Source: an uncultured Ignavibacteria bacterium (lineage in GTDB: Bacteria > Bacteroidota > Ignavibacteria > Tepidaquicellales > OLB5). Taken from it: a DNA stretch of 64,000 nucleotides. The translations under genes and the position numbers were made by a program. Shown piece by piece: positions 2,736 through 51,203 of the stretch (positions are counted from its first letter, which is position 1; each line of letters begins with the position of its first letter). The stretch covers positions 124,001 to 188,000 of the forward strand of contig CALMYL010000007.1 in assembly GCA_937873695.1 (NCBI GenBank), given 5' to 3'. The notes under the pieces are model-generated. The model was not told the DNA's origin, did no database searches, and saw only the letters and a list, made by a program, of their open reading frames with translations.

Positions 2736-3830
2736 TTACTTCAAATACTCTTCTTTCAGCAGGTAATAATACGCAGGCATCATGTGGTGAACGAAAGCCC
2801 CGGCGATTCCCCCGGTTGATACAAACTTCTCTTTATAGGAATCCGTTGGCATTAATATTACCGGTGAGCCGGTTACGGTGTAATCCATAGTGGTTACATA
2901 TTTGGGTTCCTTAAAATCCGGAAGGAAAGTTTTGATTATTTTGTAGAGCTCCGCGCCGGTATATTTTATTAATATATCCCGCGCGTCATCCATATCACCA
3001 AGTACCGATCTTTGTATGAGTCCGATCACCACCCTTGGGAAAAATCCCAGGTTTGCGGCTAAAGTTGAATCAACCGGCGTAAACGGATCGTTATGTTTGA
3101 AGTCATACCTTGTCTGCACGGTGGGCGGCATTTGCGGAACCCAGTCCATTTGGTTTACTACACGGTGAGACCAGCCGCCGCGCGTGATGAACTCAAAATC
3201 ATACGCGTAATACAGGTTACCCGGCTTTGGCGCCGCGCTGCAGTAAGTTTTAAATGTTACATCATTTGGAATTGTGCCGTAAGGCAGGTAATAAAAATAT
3301 GAGCGCATCAGGTACGCAATTGCAGCGCCCTGGCTGTGCCCGAAGATAATAAAATCCTTTACACCCTTTGCGTAATACTCATTTATTTTTTCTATAATAG
3401 ATGGCGCCAGGAATTTCATGCCGAGCAGAAATCCCGTATGCACCGCCGCGTTCTTATCTTCTGCAAGCTTATAATTGAAAGTTTCTTTGCCGAACTTCAA
3501 TGAACCCTCTGCGGGCACCATTGGTGCATAGAAATCAAGCATCCAGGATTTTTCGGTAGCTACGGTTCCGCGGATATTAATTACCGCGACGGAGTCACTG
3601 CTGAGCCACATATCCCACCGGTTATCAAGCCCGACTGTATCGCCAATGTAAGCATGGCTCCATCCCGCAGGATACGGGTCAGCCGGCGGTACCTTGGTTG
3701 TATCGGCAAAACGCTCGGTCATTTCAAGTCCGCGCGCGTATTCGTTTGCATCAAACCCGGGCTTAAGTTTTTGCGAAAAGGAAGATGAGATAACAATACA
3801 AAGAAGAAACAGGTAAACAGTATTTTTCAT
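2736..3830 (-). CDS. secreted class 3 lipase family protein
   Basis: A 364-residue exported protein with an N-terminal signal peptide ending around SSSFSQ. A strand leading to V-I-N-I-R-G-T (about residue 85) and the nucleophile elbow G-H-S-Q-G-A (Ser about 166) are characteristic of fungal-type class 3 lipases. NQMDWVPQMPP offers the catalytic Asp, and HHMMPAYYYLL near the C-terminus offers the His. Between them lies a YCSAAPKPGN segment typical of the family's TFG.PRVG strand. Likely a periplasmic or extracellular ester or lipid hydrolase; the substrate is unknown. It appears monocistronic. The ATG at 3830 directly precedes the signal sequence. Confidence 0.75.
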   Translation of the reverse strand: MKNTVYLFLLCIVISSSFSQKLKPGFDANEYARGLEMTERFADTTKVPPADPYPAGWSHAYIGDTVGLDNRWDMWLSSDSVAVINIRGTVATEKSWMLDFYAPMVPAEGSLKFGKETFNYKLAEDKNAAVHTGFLLGMKFLAPSIIEKINEYYAKGVKDFIIFGHSQGAAIAYLMRSYFYYLPYGTIPNDVTFKTYCSAAPKPGNLYYAYDFEFITRGGWSHRVVNQMDWVPQMPPTVQTRYDFKHNDPFTPVDSTLAANLGFFPRVVIGLIQRSVLGDMDDARDILIKYTGAELYKIIKTFLPDFKEPKYVTTMDYTVTGSPVILMPTDSYKEKFVSTGGIAGAFVHHMMPAYYYLLKEEYLK

Positions 3831-4033
3831 ATTAATATAATGTTATTCTGCGAAGTTAAGTGAAAAGGCAAAAGTAAAAAGGCAAAAATGGCGAAAGTCA
3901 GGCTTTTTCTGGCGTACCCGGTTTGTTTGGCGCGATAATTATTAACAGAGGTTCGTTCTTACTACAAAAATTTCTCTATTTAACCATTCTATAATAAAAG
4001 TTATCTTACGGGGTTGTTAGACCCCACCCCTGA

Positions 4034-4054
4034 CCCCTCCCCGAAGGGGAGGGG
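4034..4054. repeat. dispersed palindrome CCCCTCCCC-GAA-GGGGAGGGG
   Basis: A perfect 9-bp stem with a 3-base loop, preceded by ACCCCACCCCTGA. It lies just upstream of cysS and, translated in frame, gives [11 protein letters not shown], a familiar false N-terminal extension. A close relative is at 63765-63785, and degenerate ones are near 20561 and 14311. Confidence 0.85.
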
Positions 4055-4085
4055 AATCATAATTACTGTTAAGAAAGAATCAACA

Positions 4086-5507
4086 ATGGATATTACTTTA
4101 TTTAATACATTAGGCAGGGAAAAACAGGTGTTTACTCCAATAACTGAAGGTAAGGTTGGGCTGTATACATGCGGACCCACGGTCTATGATTACCAGCATA
4201 TTGGCAACTTCCGCACATTTATGTTTGAAGACCTGCTGAAGCGCGTGCTGTTATACAACGGCTACGATGTTACGCATATTATGAACATTACCGATGTGGG
4301 TCATTTAGTAAGCGATGGCGACGAAGGCGAAGATAAAATGGAAAAGGGCTCCGCCCGTACCGGCAAAACCGTTTGGGAAATTGCGGAGTACTACACGGGA
4401 TTTTTCCTTGATGATGCTAAAGCGCTGAACATTATACCGCCTACAAAATACACCAAGGCTACCGACTACATTCAGGAGCAAATTGATATGGTGAAGTGCC
4501 TGGATAATAAAGGCTACACATATGTAACAAGCGACGGTGTTTATTTTGATACATCAAAACTTAAGGATTACGGCAAGCTTGCCAATCTTGATATCGAAGG
4601 GCTTGAAGAAGGCTCGCGCATACAGTTCAGCACCGAGAAAAAAAATAAAACCGATTTTGCGCTGTGGAAATTTTCACCGAAAGATAGCGATACGAAAAGG
4701 CAGATGGAATGGGATTCCCCATGGGGAAAAGGTTTCCCCGGGTGGCACATTGAGTGCTCCGCGATGAGTAAAAAATTCCTTGGTGATACGTTTGATATTC
4801 ACTGCGGCGGAATTGACCACGTGCCTATTCACCACACCAACGAGATCGCGCAGTCTGAAGCGTGCAACGGCAAGATGTTTGTACATTACTGGCTGCACGG
4901 CGCATTCCTTGAGGAAGAATCCGGCAAAATGAGTAAATCAAAGGGTGAATTTTTACGGGTTAAAACACTGATTGATCACGGATACTCGCCTTTAGATTAC
5001 CGCTACCTGTGCCTTGGTACGCATTACCGCAAGAGGCTGCTCTTCAGCTGGGAAATACTTGAGCAGGCAAAAACAGCGATGACAAGGCTTAAACAGAATG
5101 TGCAGCAGATACGCGATGATGCGAAGAAGAATTTTGACTCTCGCGACGCATCAATGCCCGAAGGCGAGAGGGAGAAATTCCTTGAAGCTGTGAACGATGA
5201 CCTGAACATGCCGCAGGCGCTTGCAGTGCTGTGGGGTGTAGTTAGAAATGATAAGCTCTCGAGCATCGAGAAGATGAATCTGATAAACGATTTTAACCGC
5301 GTGCTTGGACTTGATCTTGATAAAGATATTGAAGCCGGAAATACAGACGTTCCCGCGGAAATTATGGAGCTTGTTGATAAGCGCATTGCCGCAAAGAAGG
5401 CTAAGGATTTCAAGAAGGCTGATTCATTGCGCGATGAGCTGAAAGCGCTGGGCTGGGAAGTTTTGGATAAGAAGGATGGTGTTGAAGTAAAGCAAATTAC
5501 GGGTTAG
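4086..5507 (+). CDS. cysS: cysteinyl-tRNA synthetase
   Basis: Charges tRNA-Cys with cysteine in the cytoplasm. The 473-residue chain starting at this ATG opens with [16 protein letters not shown], the normal CysRS N-terminus. Class I signatures are clear: CGPTVYD with the first zinc Cys (about 28), HIGN (about 37-40), GWHIECS with the second zinc Cys, [11 protein letters not shown], and KMSKSKG (about 279). The C-terminal anticodon-binding region contains [15 protein letters not shown]. The frame is open upstream to a TTG at 4014, but those 24 codons translate the dispersed palindrome and should be excluded. The following gene starts 9 bases after the stop and may be cotranscribed. Confidence 0.96.
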
Positions 5508-37884: not shown

Positions 37885-38961
37885 ATGACATTCAAATATA
37901 GCATGAATCCATCTCAATATTACGATTACACTCCCGGCAGCGTAGATTTTTCGGGGTATGAAAGGGGCGAAGCGAGCAAAATTCCCTACGGATTTTTGGC
38001 GCTTTACTTCATTTTATCTATCGTAATATGTTATTTGTACCACAAAAAAATTGTGTCGCAGGCTGACTGGAATGCGCCGAACAGTCTTAACGCTGTGGCA
38101 TCATTTCAAACGGCAAAGCCGTACCAGTTCCGCCTGCTAATGCCGGTGATATTCGATTTCTTCAGGCCGCTGCACGCCGTTTACGGTAAGTATCTATATA
38201 ATGCATGGAATGTAGCTGCTGTTCTGTTAATTCAGGTGGTTTATTATAAATTACTTTGCGGCTATTTTAAGAACAGAAGATACCTGTTATGGATCGCGCC
38301 GGTGATATTGTACCCGGTTTTGTTTAACTATATAATACTCAACCAGTCTTTTCAGTATTACGATTTTACCGCAATCCTGTTTTTTACTATAGGGCTGTAT
38401 TACATACTGAATCAAAAGACAACAGCTTTCATTATATTTTTTGTAATTGCAATTATTAATAAAGAAACTGCCGGCTATCTTATTTTTGCATACCTGTTGT
38501 TTAACTATAGGAATCTGTTCACCAAAAAAGTAATTGTTAATACTTTTATTTTAGGCGTTATTTTTATAGGTTATAAACTGCTGCTGAATTATATTTTCCG
38601 CAATAACCCGGGTGATAGTTTTGAAGTTGGATATTATGAAAATATCAGGATAGTTCAGGAGTTATTCAGCAACAGGATTCTGCTTAAAAACCTGGCGCTT
38701 AACTTTGGCGGGTTGTACATATTTGTAATACTGCTTTTTGTAACGGGCCTGTGGCTTAAGTATCCCGATAAAAGAAAGGTATATATGAACCTGGCTATAG
38801 TGCCGTATTACCTGTTCGGTATTTACATAACATATATTACCGAAGTCAGGGTTTATACGGAACTTATACCTATGATAACTACATTATTTTTAATATTTTT
38901 AAGCAGTTTCAAATTCTCAGGGTTAGAACCATGGGCTGCAGTTAAGCAAAAGCAGGTATAA
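37885..38961 (+). CDS. polytopic membrane protein, paralogue A
   Basis: 358 residues with about nine hydrophobic helices after a 40-residue soluble N-terminus. A QFRLLMPVIFDFF motif follows the first helix; later landmarks are ETAGYLIFAYLLFNYRNL, NFGGLYIFVI and TEVRVYTELIPMITTLFLIF. The gene at 39763 has the same landmarks in the same order, so the two are paralogues. No DxD or known GT-C motif is certain. Its place among glycosyltransferases suggests a membrane step of glycan assembly (transfer or polymerisation), but this is inference. Confidence 0.7.
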   Translation: MTFKYSMNPSQYYDYTPGSVDFSGYERGEASKIPYGFLALYFILSIVICYLYHKKIVSQADWNAPNSLNAVASFQTAKPYQFRLLMPVIFDFFRPLHAVYGKYLYNAWNVAAVLLIQVVYYKLLCGYFKNRRYLLWIAPVILYPVLFNYIILNQSFQYYDFTAILFFTIGLYYILNQKTTAFIIFFVIAIINKETAGYLIFAYLLFNYRNLFTKKVIVNTFILGVIFIGYKLLLNYIFRNNPGDSFEVGYYENIRIVQELFSNRILLKNLALNFGGLYIFVILLFVTGLWLKYPDKRKVYMNLAIVPYYLFGIYITYITEVRVYTELIPMITTLFLIFLSSFKFSGLEPWAAVKQKQV

Positions 38962-38991
38962 AATAATTCATAATTTTTCATTTCTCATAAT

Positions 38992-39741
38992 TTGAAGAAG
39001 GATCACGATATTACAAAGCAGCAAATAAATACTGATAACCAGGCAAAAACCGAAAGCCAGGTAAGTTTTGATGACTACGTTGAAACATACAGGACGGAAA
39101 TTGATGATTCGATCGGTTTTATAGGTCAGGACGTAGATTTTTTTATTGAAATTAAAGCAGAGCTATTATTAAAGCTTGCCCGGAAAAACTTTGGTTCGCT
39201 GGATAAAGTTAAAGTTCTTGATATTGGCAGCGGGGTTGGACTTGTTGACCGCTTTCTGAAATCAGAGATAAAACAGCTTTACGGGGTGGATGTAGAAGAA
39301 GGCGTTGTTGAAAAAGCAAAAGTAAATAATCCCGAAGTGAATTATCAGATGTATGACGGCGCGAAGCTGCCCTTTGAAGATAATACCTTTGATATGTGTT
39401 TTGCCATAAACGTAATGCATCATGTGCCGCCCGGAATGTGGGAAAATTTTTCGCGGGAAATGTACCGGGTTTTAAAACCCGGCGGCATAGCCGCAGTGTT
39501 TGAGCATAATCCATGGAACCCGCTTACAAGGCTTGCCGTGGCAAGATGTGAATTTGACCGCGACGCCGTATTGCTTAACCATCCTAAAATAAAGAGCCTG
39601 TTCAAAGGCGCAGGATTAAGGGTGTTTGATGATTCATTTATCGTGTTTTTTCCCTTTCAGGCAAAGTTATTCAGAAGCATTGAAACAGCATTGGGCTGGC
39701 TGCCCATTGGCGCGCAGCATTACGTAACAGGCAAAAAATAA
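38992..39741 (+). CDS. SAM-dependent methyltransferase, class I
   Basis: 249 residues from a TTG start. VKVLDIGSGVGLVDRFL is motif I, LYGVDVEEGVVEKAK motif II, and MCFAINVMHHVPPGMWENF with YRVLKPGGIAAVFEHNPWNP cover motifs IV-VI of the Methyltransf_11 group. Substrate unknown; a sugar or lipid-linked glycan intermediate fits the location. It lies between the two paralogous membrane protein genes with short gaps (30 and 21 bases), so one operon is likely. Confidence 0.8.
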   Translation: MKKDHDITKQQINTDNQAKTESQVSFDDYVETYRTEIDDSIGFIGQDVDFFIEIKAELLLKLARKNFGSLDKVKVLDIGSGVGLVDRFLKSEIKQLYGVDVEEGVVEKAKVNNPEVNYQMYDGAKLPFEDNTFDMCFAINVMHHVPPGMWENFSREMYRVLKPGGIAAVFEHNPWNPLTRLAVARCEFDRDAVLLNHPKIKSLFKGAGLRVFDDSFIVFFPFQAKLFRSIETALGWLPIGAQHYVTGKK

Positions 39742-39762
39742 TCTACAGGCGGAATATATATA

Positions 39763-40803
39763 TTGATAAAATACTTAAATAAAAAATTTCCGAACGACAA
39801 CTACCCTTCAATACTGATACATCTTTATTATATGATGATATCCTTTACACTGTGTTATGTTTATTACCATAAATTCATAACGCGGGCTGATTTTTTTTCA
39901 CCGGCATCAAGCGGCGGAATATACGCCGTATTGAACGGCGAAGCCTTAAAACCCGTTCAGTTCAGGATCCTGATACCGCTCATTTTCAAAGCCGCACAGG
40001 CTGTTATTTTTCTTGTTAAAGCTATCCCCGATAAGGCTCTGTTTTTTCTTATAACGATCATGCTGTGCTATATGATACTGTTTTCATTCTATCTTTTGCT
40101 TGGGCAGTATTTTAAAGGCAACGCTATGAATTGCTGGCTGGCATCAATTATCATTTATCCCATGATATGGAACCTTGTAATAATGAACGGGCAGTTCTTT
40201 TATATGGATTTCAGCATACTGCTCATAATAATTCTTGGGTTTTACTGCATTGTTGCCGAAAAATATAACTCGCTGCTTGTGGTGTTCTTCCTTGGTGTGC
40301 TTAATCACCCCTCGGTTGGTTACCTTATAATTGCTTTCCTGCTGTATAACTACAGGAACCTGCTGAAGCTTAAAACAATAGGGTATGCCGCCGCAATGAG
40401 CGTATTGTACATTGGCATATACAGGCTGATGGATGCTTACTTCCCCAGTACAGCCGGCTATTTTGTAATTTATAATCTTCCAAGGAACCTGAACCTTCTG
40501 CACATACTCCCTATGCATATCATACTTCGCGATATATTCTTTAACTTCGGGGGACTGCATATATTTGTTATAATATTTTTCCTTTCAGGTGCATGGAAAA
40601 AGTACCGGAGCCCGCTGCTGTATATAAATCTTGTAATTATTCCCTATGTAATATCAGTATTGATCAACTTCAGCATCGAAGAGATAAGGAATTATGTGAC
40701 CATAATTCCGTTTGTGCTTATCTTAACGCTTTTGTTCCTCAGCTCTTTTGATAATTCTTTCCTGAAACCTGTTGACAGGCTATTTGAAAAGAACAGCAAA
40801 TGA
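39763..40803 (+). CDS. polytopic membrane protein, paralogue B
   Basis: 346 residues from a TTG start, about nine hydrophobic helices. It shares with paralogue A an N-terminal QFRILIPLIF motif, SVGYLIIAFLLYNYRNL, NFGGLHIFVIIFFLSGAWKKY and IEEIRNYVTIIPFVLIL. Its stop overlaps the next glycosyltransferase start (ATGA), so translation is coupled. Inner-membrane protein; a role in glycan assembly is inferred from context. Confidence 0.7.
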   Translation: MIKYLNKKFPNDNYPSILIHLYYMMISFTLCYVYYHKFITRADFFSPASSGGIYAVLNGEALKPVQFRILIPLIFKAAQAVIFLVKAIPDKALFFLITIMLCYMILFSFYLLLGQYFKGNAMNCWLASIIIYPMIWNLVIMNGQFFYMDFSILLIIILGFYCIVAEKYNSLLVVFFLGVLNHPSVGYLIIAFLLYNYRNLLKLKTIGYAAAMSVLYIGIYRLMDAYFPSTAGYFVIYNLPRNLNLLHILPMHIILRDIFFNFGGLHIFVIIFFLSGAWKKYRSPLLYINLVIIPYVISVLINFSIEEIRNYVTIIPFVLILTLLFLSSFDNSFLKPVDRLFEKNSK

Positions 40804-41891
40804 AGGTATTATACGTTAGCTCAAACGGGGGAATACACGATTACAGGTTCTTAAAAAAACTTGTGGAAGACCACGAAGTTTTGTTCCTTCATTATGCCGC
40901 AGGCGAGATAATTGATGAGATAGATAAACTTGAACACTTACAGATAATTTCAAAAAAACCCGCATTCCGCTCAATGCCGCTTATCAGCGAGCGCGGGCAC
41001 TTTAAAAAAGTTGTGGATGAATTCAAACCGGATTTAATCCACTCAGGGTATGTTTGGCAGGTAGGCATTCTTGCCGCCAATTCAGGCTTCCACCCGCATC
41101 TATCGATGCCGTGGGGATCTGATATACTTACAGAGCCAGATAAAAGCATGTTCCGCAGGGTCCTTGTAAAGAAAGTAATGAATACATGCGACCACGTGCA
41201 GTGCGATGCGGAGTTTGTGAAGCAAAAAATAATCAGCGATTACGCCCTGCCCGCCGATAAGATATCGGTCTTTCCATGGGGAATTGACCTCCAGCTATTC
41301 AGTAAAACAGACAAGGTTTCCGCCAGGAAAAGTTTAAAACTGGAACAGGATAAATTCATCGTTCTGTTTAACAGGTATTTTGAACCAGTTTACGGGGTGA
41401 ACTTCCTTATGGAGGCATTCAGGAATTTTTGCGCAGCCAAAGATGATGTGCTGATGCTGATGCTTTCGGAGGGTTCGGGGAAAGTTGACGTTCTGAAATA
41501 TATTACCGAAAGCGGACTGGATAACAAGATACAGGTTTTGGGCAGAGTGCCAAATCACGAGCTGCCGCTATTTTTGAACGCCGCCGATGTGTATGTTTCG
41601 CCCTCACTCAGTGACGGAACGTCACTCTCGTTACTGGAAGCAATGGCATGCGGAACAGGGCTGATTGTAAGCGATGTGCCGGCAATTAAAGAATGGGTAA
41701 ATGCTGAAAACGGACTTATGGTCAAAAGGGGTGATGCAGCAGAACTGAATCGGGCACTTGAAGAGTATTACACAAACCGCACACTGGCAGAAACACACGG
41801 CGCAAAGAACCTGGAAATTGCCAAAGTGCGGGCAGACTGGGATAAGAACTATCTTAAGCTGAAGGAAATTTACAGCATGCTGGTTAAATAA
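40800..41891 (+). CDS. family 4 glycosyltransferase
   Basis: 363 residues; the ATG overlaps the previous stop. FKPDLIHSGYVWQVGILAA, LSMPWGSDIL, then KISVFPWGIDLQLF, IVLFNRYFEPVYGVNFLMEA and VYVSPSLSDGTSLSLLEAMACGTGLIVSD with the GT4 catalytic Glu pair (S-L-L-E-A-M-A). Retaining transferase of the GT-B fold. Cytoplasmic, translationally coupled to the membrane protein upstream. Sugar donor unknown. Confidence 0.87.
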   Translation: MKVLYVSSNGGIHDYRFLKKLVEDHEVLFLHYAAGEIIDEIDKLEHLQIISKKPAFRSMPLISERGHFKKVVDEFKPDLIHSGYVWQVGILAANSGFHPHLSMPWGSDILTEPDKSMFRRVLVKKVMNTCDHVQCDAEFVKQKIISDYALPADKISVFPWGIDLQLFSKTDKVSARKSLKLEQDKFIVLFNRYFEPVYGVNFLMEAFRNFCAAKDDVLMLMLSEGSGKVDVLKYITESGLDNKIQVLGRVPNHELPLFLNAADVYVSPSLSDGTSLSLLEAMACGTGLIVSDVPAIKEWVNAENGLMVKRGDAAELNRALEEYYTNRTLAETHGAKNLEIAKVRADWDKNYLKLKEIYSMLVK

Positions 41892-41941
41892 GATCTCCGG
41901 GATAGACCCGCTTACAAAAAAAATCAATTCAAAAAATCAAT

Positions 41942-42628
41942 ATGAAAAGGATACTTCTGCTTCACGGCGCCATTGGCGCAAAGGATCAATTCGGGGTTTT
42001 ACGGGAATTGTTATCTGCGGATATAGAAGTTCACACTATGAATTTCACAGGACACGGCGGGGGAGAAATACCCGACGAGCCTTTTACAATTGATTTGTTT
42101 GAACGTGATATTATCAGATATCTTGATGCGAATAATATAGATGAGATAAATATATTCGGTTACAGCATGGGAGGTTATGCCGCATTGTATGCGTCTTTGA
42201 ATAATCCCGGAAGGATAGGAAAGATATTTACGCTTGCCACAAAATTTGAATGGACCCCCGAAATCGCCGCGCGCGAAGTAAAAATGCTGGATGCTGAAAA
42301 GATGAAAGTGAAGGTCCCAAAGTTTGCCGGAGAGCTTGCAAAGAGACATGGTGAAGATAATTGGGTTACTCTTCTGAAGAAAACAGCGGAAATGATGACA
42401 GGGCTTGGAAATAAGAATGTACTTACCACGGAATTACTGAAACAGGTAACAAACAAAGTGCTTGTTGGAATTGGTGACAGCGATAAGATGGTAACGCTTG
42501 AAGAGACTATTGCCGCATACAGGGCTTTAACAAACGCAAACCTGATAGTTTTGCCCGCCACGCCTCATCCCATTGAGATGGCGGATTGTACAAGGCTCGT
42601 TGCGGAAATAAAAAGGTTTTTTGGATAA
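41942..42628 (+). CDS. alpha/beta-fold hydrolase
   Basis: 228 residues. ILLLHGAIGAKDQF has the oxyanion HG, INIFGYSMGGYAALY holds the nucleophile Ser (G-Y-S-M-G), VGIGDSDKMV gives Asp and LPATPHPIEMAD gives His. A lid-like helical insertion lies at about 115-160. The order matches MhpC/thioesterase-type alpha/beta hydrolases. Cytoplasmic; its place at the end of the plus-strand glycan cluster may be incidental. Confidence 0.8.
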   Translation: MKRILLLHGAIGAKDQFGVLRELLSADIEVHTMNFTGHGGGEIPDEPFTIDLFERDIIRYLDANNIDEINIFGYSMGGYAALYASLNNPGRIGKIFTLATKFEWTPEIAAREVKMLDAEKMKVKVPKFAGELAKRHGEDNWVTLLKKTAEMMTGLGNKNVLTTELLKQVTNKVLVGIGDSDKMVTLEETIAAYRALTNANLIVLPATPHPIEMADCTRLVAEIKRFFG

Positions 42629-43328: not shown

Positions 43329-43349
43329 AAATTGTATGATTATGGAATT

Positions 43350-43654
43350 TCAATTACTCTCCAAAGATTTAAGCCTTTCGGGATTTTGTCTGTTATCCCA
43401 TACAGATTGAATATAAAGATCTTCCCCGTTAATCCTGTAAAAAATAGAATAATGTTTGAGAATGAAAAACGAACATTACTTCTGTTAGTTTTTTTACCTG
43501 CCAGTGGAAATTTTGAAAGAGTTACAGCAGAATTTTCAAACTGAGAATCCAATTTAATACTATATGTGTTGGATTTATTATTCTCAACCCAGAATCTGAA
43601 TATTTCGAATCTGTCTCTTAAAGCCCTCTCAGTCCATACTATTTTTTTTGCCAC
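43350..43654 (-). pseudogene. RelE/ParE-type toxin gene with frameshift in T6 run
   Basis: The frame from 43654 reads AKKIVWTERALRDRFEIFRFW and on to NIILFF, then runs into a non-homologous tail ending at 43340. In another frame the same DNA reads FYRINGEDLYIQSVWDNRQN followed by PERL and ends at the stop at 43350-43352. That tail is the normal RelE/ParE C-terminus, with D-N-R-x-N-P-E-R-L. The shift falls in the minus-strand T6 tract at 43439-43444; seven or four T would restore the frame. It is a decayed toxin, a slippage switch, or a homopolymer base-call error. It overlaps the antitoxin by 16 bases. Confidence 0.85.
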
Positions 43655-43872
43655 TGCTTAGCAATTTCATGCGCTTCTTCATGTGAGTAGACTTTGCCTT
43701 CAGAAATATTCCGGTCAGCTTCATTCAGTGCTTTTTCCTGATCTTCATTCAGCACGTATATTTCAGAATCTTCTTCAATGTGAATAAGATGCGAAATGCC
43801 TTCAAGCATTTCTACATTATCAGATTTGCTTATTTTTTCAATGAGTTTAATTTTAAGTTCAGCTGTTGTCAT
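43639..43872 (-). CDS. antitoxin-like component of second RelE/ParE-type module
   Basis: 77 residues: MTTAELKIKLIEKISKSDN, then YVLNEDQEKALNEADRNISE and GKVYSHEEAHEIAKQW. It aligns with the antitoxin at 9313-9549 along its length (M-T-T start, L-I-x-K-I, I-x-x-G-x-x-x-S-x-E-E). The toxin frame overlaps by 16 bases, exactly as in the first module, so the two modules are related copies. Confidence 0.75.
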   Translation of the reverse strand: MTTAELKIKLIEKISKSDNVEMLEGISHLIHIEEDSEIYVLNEDQEKALNEADRNISEGKVYSHEEAHEIAKQWQKK

Positions 43873-43966: not shown

Positions 43967-44911
43967 TCAACCCGCTGCCCGCATTATCAAAAATGCATTA
44001 AGTGAAATGTATATAATGGAAACTGAATAAAAGCTCAGCCTATCCAGTTTTTTTGCTTTGGCTAAATACTCCGGTTTTTCGGTCTCGTTCCATTTGAAGG
44101 ATATTACCGCGACAACCAGAATTACAAAGATCGCGATAAATGTTATGTTGTGGATATTATCAAACAGTGTGTTGGATACAGTTGAAGGTACGACTGACTC
44201 AATAATATATTTATTACCCACGGCGGCAAAAAGGCCGCCAACGCAGAGCCCAAGTCTATCACTTGGCTTTACAAAGAATGCCAGCAGAACAATTGAAAAC
44301 GCAACATACACACCGGTGAGCATTTTGAAAAGAGTGTTCCAAGAATTTTCACGGGTAAGGAAAATATCGGCTGTCACCGATGGATATGTGCTTGAGCCTT
44401 TTATCACAGGGTCGCCAAAAGTTGTATTGTAGGTTTGATTATTTACGTAAAATGCCAGTGAATCAATTTTCCAGTTGCTCAAAAGCAGGTTTGAATCAAT
44501 GGCTGAATTTCCGGCATCGGTAATGAAGGCGAGTTTTTTGGTATCGTAAATAGTGTGATCAATATGCAGCGTTAATTTCTGCTTATCGAACGGAAAAGAA
44601 GAGACATCCCACTCCTTGAAAACAACGGCGCTGAATTTCATCATATCCCAATTGATCCCGTCCTTTTTCATTTTGGAATAGTTTGTAAAGGATGATGATT
44701 TGGAATTGGTAACTTCAAGGGCATCATTGAACTGGAGACTATCATTTTTGTAATTGAACCACATCCAGAAATCAGATGAGAAGCTTTGATCGCTGATGTT
44801 GAAATCGGTAAGAGAGTTGATGTATATGCCCACCTTACAGGTGTCTTCTGCGGAGCGGGTGAAAGAGCTGCCCAATACAAGAAGCAGCAATACAGATAAA
44901 ATTTTATTCAT
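43967..44911 (-). CDS. pentameric ligand-gated ion channel (Cys-loop-like) homologue
   Basis: 314 residues. Signal peptide about 1-20. The extracellular-type domain opens with CKVGIYINSLTDFNISDQSF and SDFWMWFNYKND and carries WDVSSFPFDKQKLTLHID, the F-P-F-D-x-Q-x-L signature of pentameric ligand-gated channels. Four hydrophobic segments follow: about 191-213, 219-241, 251-273 and 290-311. The second, RLGLCVGGLFAAVGNKYIIE then SVVP, corresponds to the pore-lining M2. As in bacterial relatives (GLIC, ELIC) no Cys-loop disulphide pair is seen. It likely forms an inner-membrane channel gated by an unknown ligand or pH. Monocistronic. Confidence 0.8.
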   Translation of the reverse strand: MNKILSVLLLLVLGSSFTRSAEDTCKVGIYINSLTDFNISDQSFSSDFWMWFNYKNDSLQFNDALEVTNSKSSSFTNYSKMKKDGINWDMMKFSAVVFKEWDVSSFPFDKQKLTLHIDHTIYDTKKLAFITDAGNSAIDSNLLLSNWKIDSLAFYVNNQTYNTTFGDPVIKGSSTYPSVTADIFLTRENSWNTLFKMLTGVYVAFSIVLLAFFVKPSDRLGLCVGGLFAAVGNKYIIESVVPSTVSNTLFDNIHNITFIAIFVILVVAVISFKWNETEKPEYLAKAKKLDRLSFYSVSIIYISLNAFLIMRAAG

Positions 44912-47349: not shown

Positions 47350-48942
47350 TTATTCAGAATCTTCAGGGGGTTCATAGGTCATAACCAGCCATTTTTCTGT
47401 TTCCATTTCAAGCTGGATGCCATTTCTTATATACGGTTTCTTAGCCGTTAGCTCACTAAAGACCCTGTTCATCATCGTGTTCGGATTCTTGCGGTACATA
47501 ATAATGCCTTTGGGATTTTTCTGCATGAATGATTTGATCTCAGCGGTAAGTCCCTCTTTATCAACCGGCACGTTATAACTGCTGATAAGGATCTTTTCTG
47601 GCGGTGCCAGTTTTGTGCGGTAAGGCACATAAAATATACTGGAAGCGTTATCATCAGCATCAAATATCAGTGCCGGGTATTTATCAATAAAATGATCGAC
47701 AAAATATATTAGTTTATCCGTTTCTTCGGGTTCATCGGCAGTAACTATGAACTGGATCACCTTCGGGAACATCTTGTTGTATTTTTCGGGAACCCATTCC
47801 TTTACGTACGAAAGCGGGATGCAGGATAGTATTACAACAGAAGCGAACGCACCCTGCAGTATTCCCGAGCGCATTTTTAAAAGATCAGTATTCAACCCCG
47901 CCGCGGCAATAACCGGGGCTATTAAAAATACCAGATACAGATAATGTGTGGTGTGGTAAATAGCAGACTTCGCGCCGGCAAGACCGTTGACCAGCGAAGG
48001 CGCCAGTACCGGAATGAGCAGTGCAATCAGGAAAACTTTAGGGTACCCTTTATAGAAATATATTGTACCTTTAATGAAGTAATAAAAGAGTATAACTGTT
48101 AAACCCAGCGCAAGAAAGTAGTAAGGAAGGAAAAATCCTTTAGCTCTTAAGCCAAGGCTTAAGCCTTGTATGTTTACCGTATCGGTATATTGATCAGCGG
48201 CGTTTATAGTTTTGAAGGGCTCGCCGTAAAGCGCATAGCTTATGGCAATCCAGATAACCTGGAAGAGGAGCGAGAGCCCGATGTAGTAACAGCATCCGTT
48301 CCTTCGGGTCATAAACGCAAGAATGCACATTGGTATTATTACAAAAATCGCCTCTGGTCTTGATGCGAGGGCAATGAAGGAAAACAACCCTGAGATAACA
48401 AAATATTTCACTGATCTATCAGAAGCCAGAGCCTTTATGAAATAATACAACATAATGCAAGCTGCGGCTAAGAACGTCTGCTGGGCATAAGGTTCAAAGT
48501 TCAGCCTGAATATTACAGGATTTAAAGAAGCTATAATGAAAGCAAGAAGCGCAGTTTTAAAATCTGTCAGTACAAGCGTCATTTTGAAAACGTATGTGCA
48601 CGCAATTGTCATTACGGCTATCATTGTAAGCGCTGAAGTAAAAAACAGCTCTCCCGTTATTTTTAATATTGGACCCATGAAATAAAACCACAGCGGATGA
48701 CCTGATTCAGGCAGAACAAAAAAGGGCTTCTGAGACCACCATAAGGCATTCCACACTCTTGTAGCTGAATCACCCATATCCATCATGTTAAACGGAATGA
48801 GATATATTTTTAATGCTATTGAAATTATGATTGCCGCGGCAAAGAGGCCCATTTGCATGCCTGAAAGTTTTTCAGGTTTCAGGGTAAACTCACCTGAACT
48901 TAGCAGCCCGGGGAAAAGAAACGGTTTTTTGATGTTTGTCAT
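47350..48942 (-). CDS. GT-C family membrane glycosyltransferase
   Basis: 530 residues with about eleven transmembrane helices and a C-terminal soluble domain (about 400-530). The first loop carries MDMGDSATRVWNALWW, an acidic motif in the position of the GT39/ArnT catalytic Asp, and PFFVLPESGHPLWFYF. The pattern matches polyprenyl-phosphate-sugar-dependent transferases that add sugars on the periplasmic side. The GT2 and GT4 genes upstream on this strand form a likely transcription unit. Confidence 0.75.
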   Translation of the reverse strand: MTNIKKPFLFPGLLSSGEFTLKPEKLSGMQMGLFAAAIIISIALKIYLIPFNMMDMGDSATRVWNALWWSQKPFFVLPESGHPLWFYFMGPILKITGELFFTSALTMIAVMTIACTYVFKMTLVLTDFKTALLAFIIASLNPVIFRLNFEPYAQQTFLAAACIMLYYFIKALASDRSVKYFVISGLFSFIALASRPEAIFVIIPMCILAFMTRRNGCCYYIGLSLLFQVIWIAISYALYGEPFKTINAADQYTDTVNIQGLSLGLRAKGFFLPYYFLALGLTVILFYYFIKGTIYFYKGYPKVFLIALLIPVLAPSLVNGLAGAKSAIYHTTHYLYLVFLIAPVIAAAGLNTDLLKMRSGILQGAFASVVILSCIPLSYVKEWVPEKYNKMFPKVIQFIVTADEPEETDKLIYFVDHFIDKYPALIFDADDNASSIFYVPYRTKLAPPEKILISSYNVPVDKEGLTAEIKSFMQKNPKGIIMYRKNPNTMMNRVFSELTAKKPYIRNGIQLEMETEKWLVMTYEPPEDSE

Positions 48943-48991
48943 TAAGTATCCAATTTTTTAAACGATGCGTTAATTCAGCTGCAATTCAGCT

Positions 48992-49957
48992 TTATTTGAT
49001 AAAATGCAAACGTGGTTTTCCTTTATGCCCAAATATTCCGGCATAGGTTCCTTTAATGTAATAAAAGCCCAGCTTAAGATCGCATACTTTTATGAACCAC
49101 AGCAGCCTGAATGGAAATTTTATACTATCCGTTAAATACGATATCAGCAAATTGAAATATAGACCATGTTTGCGAAAATACAAATATTTATTTCTTTGAA
49201 TAAGGTAATATTCAAAGTAATAACCCTGTTTGTTTTCTTTGCTCCATTTGTGGTTATGCCAAAGAATGGCTTTCTTTATGGCAGTACATTTATACCCGGC
49301 ATTTTTAATTCGGCGGGCAAGATCTATTTCATCGCCGTACGCAAAATAATCTTCTTCCCACAAGCCCGTTTTTTTCAGCACATCAGCTCTTATAAATGTA
49401 GCAGCACCGGGCATAACATCAGCATAAGCCACGTCCGGAATCCGGCTTTCGTTCAGTTTATAGTCGGCACCCTCGTAATATTTCAGTATTTTATAGGTGT
49501 TAAAGTCAGCTTTCGCTCCGAATTCCTGAATCCGCCCCATTGTTCTGCTGCCTTCCCAGAAAAGTATAAGCGGCGCGGCTGCTGCTGCCGCGGGGTCATT
49601 TGCCAGTGATGCGCTTAGCGCGGAAAGGCAATTGCTTTCAAGTATGGTATCATTATTAAGAAAAAACACATATTCACAGCCGTCTTCAATAGCTACTTTT
49701 GCCCCGATATTGTTTCCGCCGGCAAAGCCTGTGTTTCCACCTGCTGAAATATATTCGATATTTAAATTAATTCCTGCATTCAGCGATACGGAAAACATTT
49801 TATCTGAATCATCAGGATTGTTATCTACAAAATAGATCTTAAAATCCTTTTCACTTTGTGCTGCAAGCGAATTGTACAGCAGCTCCAGATTTTGTTTCTG
49901 CCGGAACATGACCAATACTATACCTATCTTAGCCAATAGCGCCCCCGTCATAAACAT
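48992..49957 (-). CDS. GT2 family glycosyltransferase, rhamnosyltransferase-like
   Basis: 321 residues. IGIVLVMFRQKQNLELLYNS, then FKIYFVDNNPDDSD (donor Asp), NTGFAGGNNIGAKVAIEDG, YVFFLNNDTIL (D-x-D-like site), GAATFIRADVL and YFAYGDEIDLARRIKNAG (catalytic Asp-Glu-x-D) define the GT2 subfamily with rhamnosyl- or galactofuranosyltransferases. GHNHKWSKE follows. Its 5' end overlaps the GT4 gene by 29 bases. Cytoplasmic or membrane-associated. Confidence 0.85.
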   Translation of the reverse strand: MFMTGALLAKIGIVLVMFRQKQNLELLYNSLAAQSEKDFKIYFVDNNPDDSDKMFSVSLNAGINLNIEYISAGGNTGFAGGNNIGAKVAIEDGCEYVFFLNNDTILESNCLSALSASLANDPAAAAAAPLILFWEGSRTMGRIQEFGAKADFNTYKILKYYEGADYKLNESRIPDVAYADVMPGAATFIRADVLKKTGLWEEDYFAYGDEIDLARRIKNAGYKCTAIKKAILWHNHKWSKENKQGYYFEYYLIQRNKYLYFRKHGLYFNLLISYLTDSIKFPFRLLWFIKVCDLKLGFYYIKGTYAGIFGHKGKPRLHFIK

Positions 49958-51203
49958 TATTTATCAGACCTATGTAATAATCAGATACTTTTTCGATGGT
50001 GTGGTTTTGAACCGCAAAATCAGCTGCCTGAATGCCGAGCTTTTTCGCGGCAGAAGGCTCGCTGACAAGCTTTTTCATTGCTCCTGCAACCGCAGTACTG
50101 TTTAATTCAGTTAACAGGCCATTGGAAGAATTAATAAACAGACCCGTATCACCCGTACTGCTTGCTATAATAGCATTGCCGCAGGCCATTGCTTCCAGCA
50201 CGCTTTGCGAAGGGTAGTTGGTACCTGATTGAAGCGAAACGAACACAGAAGTACGGCTGAAGATCTCCGGGGGATTCTTATGGAATGTGAAGTTTACGCT
50301 TTCCTGTAAGCCCAATTGAGCAATGTACTCTTTAATTACGCTTACAAGCGAGCCTTCGCCAAGCAAGTGAAATTTCACGTGCGGGTACTCATGCAATACT
50401 TCACGGGCTGCATCAAGGTACATCAGCGGATTTTTATCCGGCTCAAGCCGTGCTGCAAACGCAATTTCAAAATTTTTCTTTTCACCAATCACACATTTGC
50501 TGTAATCAATGAATGAACATGGCGCTATTGAAATTTTTTCCCCTGGAATTTCCACGCCGAGTTTTTTAACGCCTTCTGCAATATACGGACTGAGGAAATC
50601 AACCATATCAGCTAAGTGAAGTATATAGTTGAAGGAGTAATACTTTCTGTACCATAATCTTTTGGTATCGCTTAATACTTCGCTGAACCAGCTGTCCATA
50701 TCAGAGAAGATGATTTTTACTCCGCGGATCTTGTTTTCTTTGTAGAACACAAGCGGCAGGCCGCCGGCATAGACCCCTATCAGTACTTCTATGTTGTTTT
50801 GTTTTCTGATACGTTCGATCTGCAGGAATATTTCTTTCTGTTTCCTTTTGTTCTTATAGAACCAGAAAATTTTTCTGGCAAGTGAAGTATTTCTGTCAAC
50901 GTCAAACGGATCAGGGATAATATCATTATACTGATCGGGAATACCTGTTTCGGTCTGCGGCACAGTGTTACCGGTATTGCCTGTTTGGATAATATGAAGA
51001 TTGTTAAGGGAAAGTTCAGGAAATGCGCGATTGATATGCTGCTGCATCAGCGGATTAATGATAAAATGAAATTTCCCCGGGTATAAGTTCTGCAAATGCG
51101 CAAAAAGATTTGTAAATCTCTTTTCAGCTCCGCCAAATGCGCCGCTGGGGAAGATAACAAACGCAGTATTAAGTAAACTGGAATTTGGCTTCGCGGTATT
51201 CAA
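49929..51203 (-). CDS. family 4 glycosyltransferase
   Basis: 424 residues. FVIFPSGAFGGAEKRFTNLF is the G-G-A-x-x-x glycine-rich N-terminal motif of GT4; IIFSDMDSWFSEVL, ISIAPCSFIDYSKC, EIAFAARLEPDKNPLMYLDA and VFVSLQSGTNYPSQSVLEAMACGNAIIAS then TGDTGLF are the C-terminal donor site with Glu. It is the first gene of the 47350-51203 unit and overlaps the GT2 gene. Substrate unknown. Confidence 0.85.
   Translation of the reverse strand: MNTAKPNSSLLNTAFVIFPSGAFGGAEKRFTNLFAHLQNLYPGKFHFIINPLMQQHINRAFPELSLNNLHIIQTGNTGNTVPQTETGIPDQYNDIIPDPFDVDRNTSLARKIFWFYKNKRKQKEIFLQIERIRKQNNIEVLIGVYAGGLPLVFYKENKIRGVKIIFSDMDSWFSEVLSDTKRLWYRKYYSFNYILHLADMVDFLSPYIAEGVKKLGVEIPGEKISIAPCSFIDYSKCVIGEKKNFEIAFAARLEPDKNPLMYLDAAREVLHEYPHVKFHLLGEGSLVSVIKEYIAQLGLQESVNFTFHKNPPEIFSRTSVFVSLQSGTNYPSQSVLEAMACGNAIIASSTGDTGLFINSSNGLLTELNSTAVAGAMKKLVSEPSAAKKLGIQAADFAVQNHTIEKVSDYYIGLINNVYDGGAIG

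Follow-up and report, generated by a model that had tools for sequence, protein, structure and literature searches.

The gene at positions 43967-44911 of the DNA analysed here, a stretch of 64,000 nucleotides from an uncultured Ignavibacteria bacterium (the window), raises the question of whether it encodes a pentameric ligand-gated ion channel (pLGIC) and, if so, what kind of pore this channel would have. To our knowledge, the understanding of gating in bacterial pLGICs rests on a mere handful of channels. The leucine at position 9' of the M2 helix and the kink proline of the M1 helix are thought to be central to gating.

The gene and its family assignment

The open reading frame proposed in the preliminary description was found to be real and complete. 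It lies on the minus strand, which had not been given before, starts with ATG, encodes 314 aa and ends with a stop codon at 43967-43969. As had been claimed, the N-terminus resembles a signal peptide (aa 1-20, 44852-44911), for which the AlphaFold2 model has a helix at residues 3-16 and low confidence at residues 18-20. The following extracellular (periplasmic) β-sandwich ligand-binding domain (aa 22-189, 44345-44848) is delimited by the modelled strands between aa 23 and 187, the Foldseek match to GLIC and the Pfam match. The four membrane segments that had been described are seen as four hydrophobic stretches in the sequence and as four helices in the model, i.e., M1 (aa 190-213, 44273-44344), M2, which is predicted to line the pore (aa 216-240, 44192-44266), M3 (aa 249-276, 44084-44167; also supported by conservation), and M4 (aa 280-313, 43973-44074).

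The Pfam model Neur_chan_LBD (PF02931) matched the protein with 27.1 bits (3.2e-6) at a gathering score of 26. The NCBIfam models of ligand-gated channels gave weak matches far under their cut-offs, with 28.3 bits against 500 for LGIC_1 (NF033918). A PF02931 search of the organism's own genome gave no match, and 14 controls were likewise without a match, so that this result carries no weight. In the PDB, GLIC was found with the single sequence by phmmer at 4.6e-5, and a profile of 17 sequences retrieved the GLIC-glycine receptor chimera (3e-13), GLIC (~1e-12), sTeLIC (2e-12), and the ELIC-GLIC chimera (1e-11), so that the proposed similarity to the channel families is present. The AlphaFold2 monomer, built from a 17-relative alignment (mean pLDDT 86.8, pTM 0.72), contains both the β-sandwich and the four helices expected of such a channel. 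By comparing this model with the PDB, Foldseek placed GLIC first (E 7e-20, TM 0.76; GLIC matches 0.76-0.78), followed by GluCl and the glycine receptors (GlyR). It is almost certain that the gene product is related to the animal neurotransmitter-gated ion channels.

The superfamily features were taken from Table 1 of PMC4795631 (2016), which sets out seven superfamily-defining residues, and six of the seven are present. F106, P107, D109, W147, R187, P242, and R219 (0') were all found. The motif F-P-F-D-x-Q named in the preliminary description is FPFDKQ at aa 106-111 (44579-44596). Within it, F106-P107-F108-D109 corresponds to the [F/Y]PxD Pro-loop (GLIC 119-122), and P107, D109, and Q111 are invariant in the alignment of 106 relatives, which includes near-copies. 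The pre-M1 arginine (GLIC R192) is R187 (44351-44353), also invariant and the expected salt-bridge partner of D109. The β9 tryptophan (GLIC W160) and the M2-M3 loop proline (GLIC P247, 23') are W147 and P242, each conserved in 104 of the relatives. The basic residue at M2 0', present in 79% of the sequences tabulated in PMC4795631, is R219 (Arg in 105 relatives, Lys in one). The M2-M3 loop with Pro242 precedes M3, and D251 and H254 are invariant. The exception is the M1 14' kink proline, in place of which there is Gly200 (Gly in 100 relatives, Cys in six); GLIC, sTeLIC, and DeCLIC have Pro at this position. The glycine marks a variant, and membership of the superfamily is still allowed because the same table lists this substitution (proline 77%, Gly 5%). 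The two cysteines on either side of the β6-β7 loop in animal Cys-loop receptors are missing, as no Cys occurs in aa 84-142. Taken as a whole, the protein is probably a homopentameric pLGIC of the Pro-loop kind, situated in the inner membrane and restricted to the core architecture of a ligand-binding domain and four helices, like GLIC.

The gene is real and intact within the genus and is under strong purifying selection. Against a 97%-identical same-genus orthologue, pS was 0.37 and pN 0.017, with a pN of 0.000 in M1-M3, a region almost without amino-acid substitutions within the genus. Against orthologues of 86-90% identity, synonymous sites are near saturation and pN in M1-M3 was 0.005-0.03. 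Evolution is fastest in the signal peptide and M4, with a pN of 0.19 in the signal peptide vs 0.003 in the extracellular domain.

By clustering the neighbours of 80 loci, no shared partner gene was found, only lineage-specific synteny, such as a small membrane protein encoded divergently upstream in 22 of the 80. Within the genus, the channel gene is divergent from a gene for a DNA-alkylation-repair-like HEAT protein (PF08713), and this neighbour says nothing about function. Directly downstream in the window (43340-43872, minus strand) lies a two-gene unit in which a 104-aa ParE-like protein (PF05016 0.005, below the cut-off) overlaps a 77-aa upstream partner, and which resembles a type II toxin-antitoxin pair. 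Farther out, the genes at 37885-42628 and 47350-51203 encode glycosyltransferase-like and multi-pass membrane proteins, probably for surface glycans.

Composition of the predicted pore and extent of the clade

The M2 string quoted in the preliminary description, RLGLCVGGLFAAVGNKYIIE, is residues 219-238 of the protein. The register from Arg219 (0') to Pro242 (23') is ungapped against GLIC, sTeLIC, DeCLIC, and the membrane domain of the glycine receptor. In GLIC, the pore-lining positions are -2', 2', 6', 9', 13', 16', and 20', and I9' is the activation gate (PMC10997623). At these positions the window protein has Ser-2', Gly2', Gly6', Phe9', Gly13', Tyr16', and Ser20'. Gly6', Phe9' (F228), and Tyr16' are invariant among the 106 relatives, and the pattern GGF(G/A)YS at 2'/6'/9'/13'/16'/20' is kept in 95 of them. 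According to Table 1 of PMC4795631, Leu at 9' (75%; Phe 13%) is common and not defining. Judged from the alignment, the unusual traits of this M2, none of them named in the preliminary description, are the Phe9' in place of a Leu/Ile gate, the glycines at 2', 6', and 13', and Tyr16'. An acid precedes Arg0' at -1' (S-D-R), and 103 of the 106 relatives have one at -1 to -3, counted ungapped, as a gap in the M1-M2 linker misleads the MAFFT columns. A pre-M2 acid with a basic 0' is the usual cation-type arrangement (PMC549065), and such a channel may therefore be cation-selective.

The preliminary description called these channels rare in bacteria, which holds only in relative terms; matches occurred in 21 of the 99 nearest genomes, 26 of 395 genomes of the phylum, and at 280 loci among GTDB representatives. 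The best 80 of these 280 relatives are nearly all titled Bacteroidota or its classes, 3 of the 80 being titled Pseudomonadota, and the scan included a 97%-identical copy in an Ignavibacteria record. Furthermore, tblastn against plasmids found relatives in Azospirillum (30%) and Streptomyces (27%), which are more distant, keep Phe9', and do not always keep the other pore positions. Phage records gave no match to the channel protein. Where annotation was seen, members are labelled 'hypothetical protein' or left unannotated.

In an IQ-TREE analysis of 38 sequences, run after deletion of the 9' and M1-proline columns, all 30 Phe9' sequences were separated from the Leu/Ile9' sequences (other Bacteroidota pLGICs, GLIC, sTeLIC, and DeCLIC) on one branch with a support of 98/96; the tree is unrooted and does not distinguish gain from loss. 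It excludes three MCP-N/Cache-type proteins, whose M2 is two residues longer so that 9' is ambiguous, as well as L021 with its very long branch. A first tree with the very long rows gave 61-74/80-96 around the same split. We are unsure of the placement of Azospirillum and Streptomyces within the clade, their branches being long. The Streptomyces members have Phe9' with the M1 proline retained, and the two replacements are thus separable.

Bacteria have been known to possess pLGICs since 2004 (PMC549065, Tasneem et al., an inventory of prokaryotic ART-LGICs). This inventory includes a Cytophaga (Bacteroidota) member, which is MCP-N/Cache-fused like three proteins of our set (L132, L134, and L135), and unlike the window protein. 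These three and L021, other Bacteroidota pLGICs in open frames of 722-771 aa, have large N-terminal regions reminiscent of the MCP-N/Cache and PBP-I fusions of 2004. Beyond that Cytophaga mention, no Bacteroidota pLGICs were found in the open-licence literature, nor was any account of this clade, of the uniform make-up of its pore, or of its size. The available parts of PMC549065 and of the Pro-loop survey (PMC4795631, Jaiteh et al. 2016) contain no description of the clade or of its pore pattern. The sequences of the clade are likely to be within that survey, since Phe9' and the M1 Gly are listed in its table, and the clade has thus probably been seen in part before. The clade is large, compact, and uncharacterised, and both of the residues held to be central to gating are replaced in it. 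It would be a natural experiment on how much the 9' Leu and the M1 proline matter.

Possible ligand, gating and alternative readings

As stated in PMC4795631, none of the pLGICs of unicellular organisms has a known biological role. In ELIC, Glu131 and the loop-C Phe are parts of the primary-amine site (PMC3119659). D118 of the window protein (Glu in 95 of 106 relatives) aligns with this Glu131, and Y176 (Tyr or Phe in all) with the Phe; the loop-C alignment is loose around Y161. In addition, W49 lies near loop D, and Y161 is invariant. These four residues weakly suggest a small amine or amino-acid-like ligand. In Azospirillum sp. B510 (locus L138, 474-7231), the channel gene (3827-4867) lies amid genes for ABC substrate-binding proteins and has an alanine racemase gene as a neighbour, which may hint that this member binds peptides or amino acids.

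The channel most likely works in the way of other pLGICs. We hypothesize that a small periplasmic solute would bind at the subunit interfaces, where an acidic residue and several aromatic ones, all conserved (W49, D/E118, Y161, and Y176), may form the site, and that the β-sandwiches would twist on binding. The contact between D109 and R187 (Pro-loop and pre-M1), together with the M2-M3 loop (P242, D251), would then pull on M2, so that the ring of five Phe9' opens and cations pass, selected by the acidic ring immediately ahead of Arg0'. Such a channel could serve to sense a solute and, in response, to depolarise the cell or let cations in. A further reading, to which we give tentative and clearly less than even credence, is that the pore was rebuilt across the clade (Phe9', Gly2'/6'/13', Tyr16', and mostly the M1 Gly) and would gate unlike a Leu9' hydrophobic gate, for example by an aromatic gate rotating out on flexible Gly-rich helices. 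This reading covers the Bacteroidota plus some Azospirillum and Streptomyces members.

Because polar rings are absent at 2' and 6' and two rings are aromatic, conduction is not to be assumed for this pore. The protein may have the pLGIC fold and act, without conducting, as a receptor or as a membrane sensor whose movements a second protein detects. The invariant rings of aromatic residues at 9' and 16', the glycines at 2', 6', and 13', and the lost M1 proline are all unlike the characterised channels compared, and the clade has no known channel activity. However, the pore-facing side of M2 is among the most conserved parts, although a helix outside the pore would be likely to drift, the filter region of acid and Arg0' is kept in 103 of 106 relatives, no conserved gene for a partner that could receive the signal was seen at the 80 loci, and the survey table of PMC4795631 itself contains Phe9' and M1 Gly at the frequencies given above. 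We therefore regard a non-conducting sensor as unlikely. The explanation that the pLGIC resemblance of a four-helix periplasmic protein is due to chance could appeal to the single-sequence Pfam score, which is barely over the cut-off, but profile, residue, and fold evidence agree independently, and the profile and Foldseek results refute it in practice, which leaves it a negligible probability.

The preliminary description proposed that a new kind of ion selectivity could come from M2, with its Gly-rich half and internal Asn-Lys. Asn233 and Lys234 are 14' and 15', and each is kept in 91 of the 106 relatives, which speaks for this idea; however, both positions are off the GLIC pore-lining list (PMC10997623), 14'/15' of GLIC were co-mutated in a propofol complex (5mvm), i.e., in the context of an anaesthetic site, the 15 relatives with Ser-Gln retain the remaining pore, and the pre-M2 acid with Arg0' is of the cation type. 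A new selectivity by Lys15' or the glycines is thus very improbable. Cation selectivity through the acidic ring is preferred. A second pLGIC paralogue was observed on another contig of the same genome (L024, G000:C17:125347-126420, 34% identity); it has a membrane-anchor-like N-terminus with a charged linker and not a short signal peptide, and Ser14'-Gln15' and not Asn-Lys. An obligate heteromer of both proteins would fit the presence of both genes in each of the six members of the genus that have a complete gene of the window type (G000, G002, G008-G011). On the other hand, there is no linkage between the two genes, only the second type is seen in several members of the genus, and other genera have a single member, so we hold a heteromer to be unlikely and the homopentamer to be the preferred assembly.

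Comparison with known channels

The proton-gated GLIC of Gloeobacter violaceus is the best PDB match in both fold and sequence. It has the same length and the same core-only build of β-sandwich and four helices, and it shares the Pro-loop, the pre-M1 Arg, the M2-M3 Pro, and the β9 Trp. Identity is 16-17%, however, and the window protein has Phe9' and Tyr16' where GLIC has Ile, Gly2'/Gly6' instead of Thr/Ser, Arg0' instead of Asn, and the M1 Gly instead of Pro. GLIC also lacks the long conserved YxTxxGDP stretch ahead of loop C. In the primary-amine-gated ELIC (Erwinia/Dickeya), the likeness is in the loop-B acid (D118/Glu131) and the loop-C aromatic (Y176/Phe), an alignment that suggests a related pocket, whereas the remaining pocket differs; the M2 comparison covered the ELIC-GLIC chimera only. 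The bacterial pLGICs sTeLIC and DeCLIC have Gly6' in common with the window protein and likewise an aromatic residue at 16' (Phe in both). Unlike it, both have Leu9' and the M1 Pro and are situated on the opposite side of the 98/96 branch, and DeCLIC has an additional N-terminal domain.
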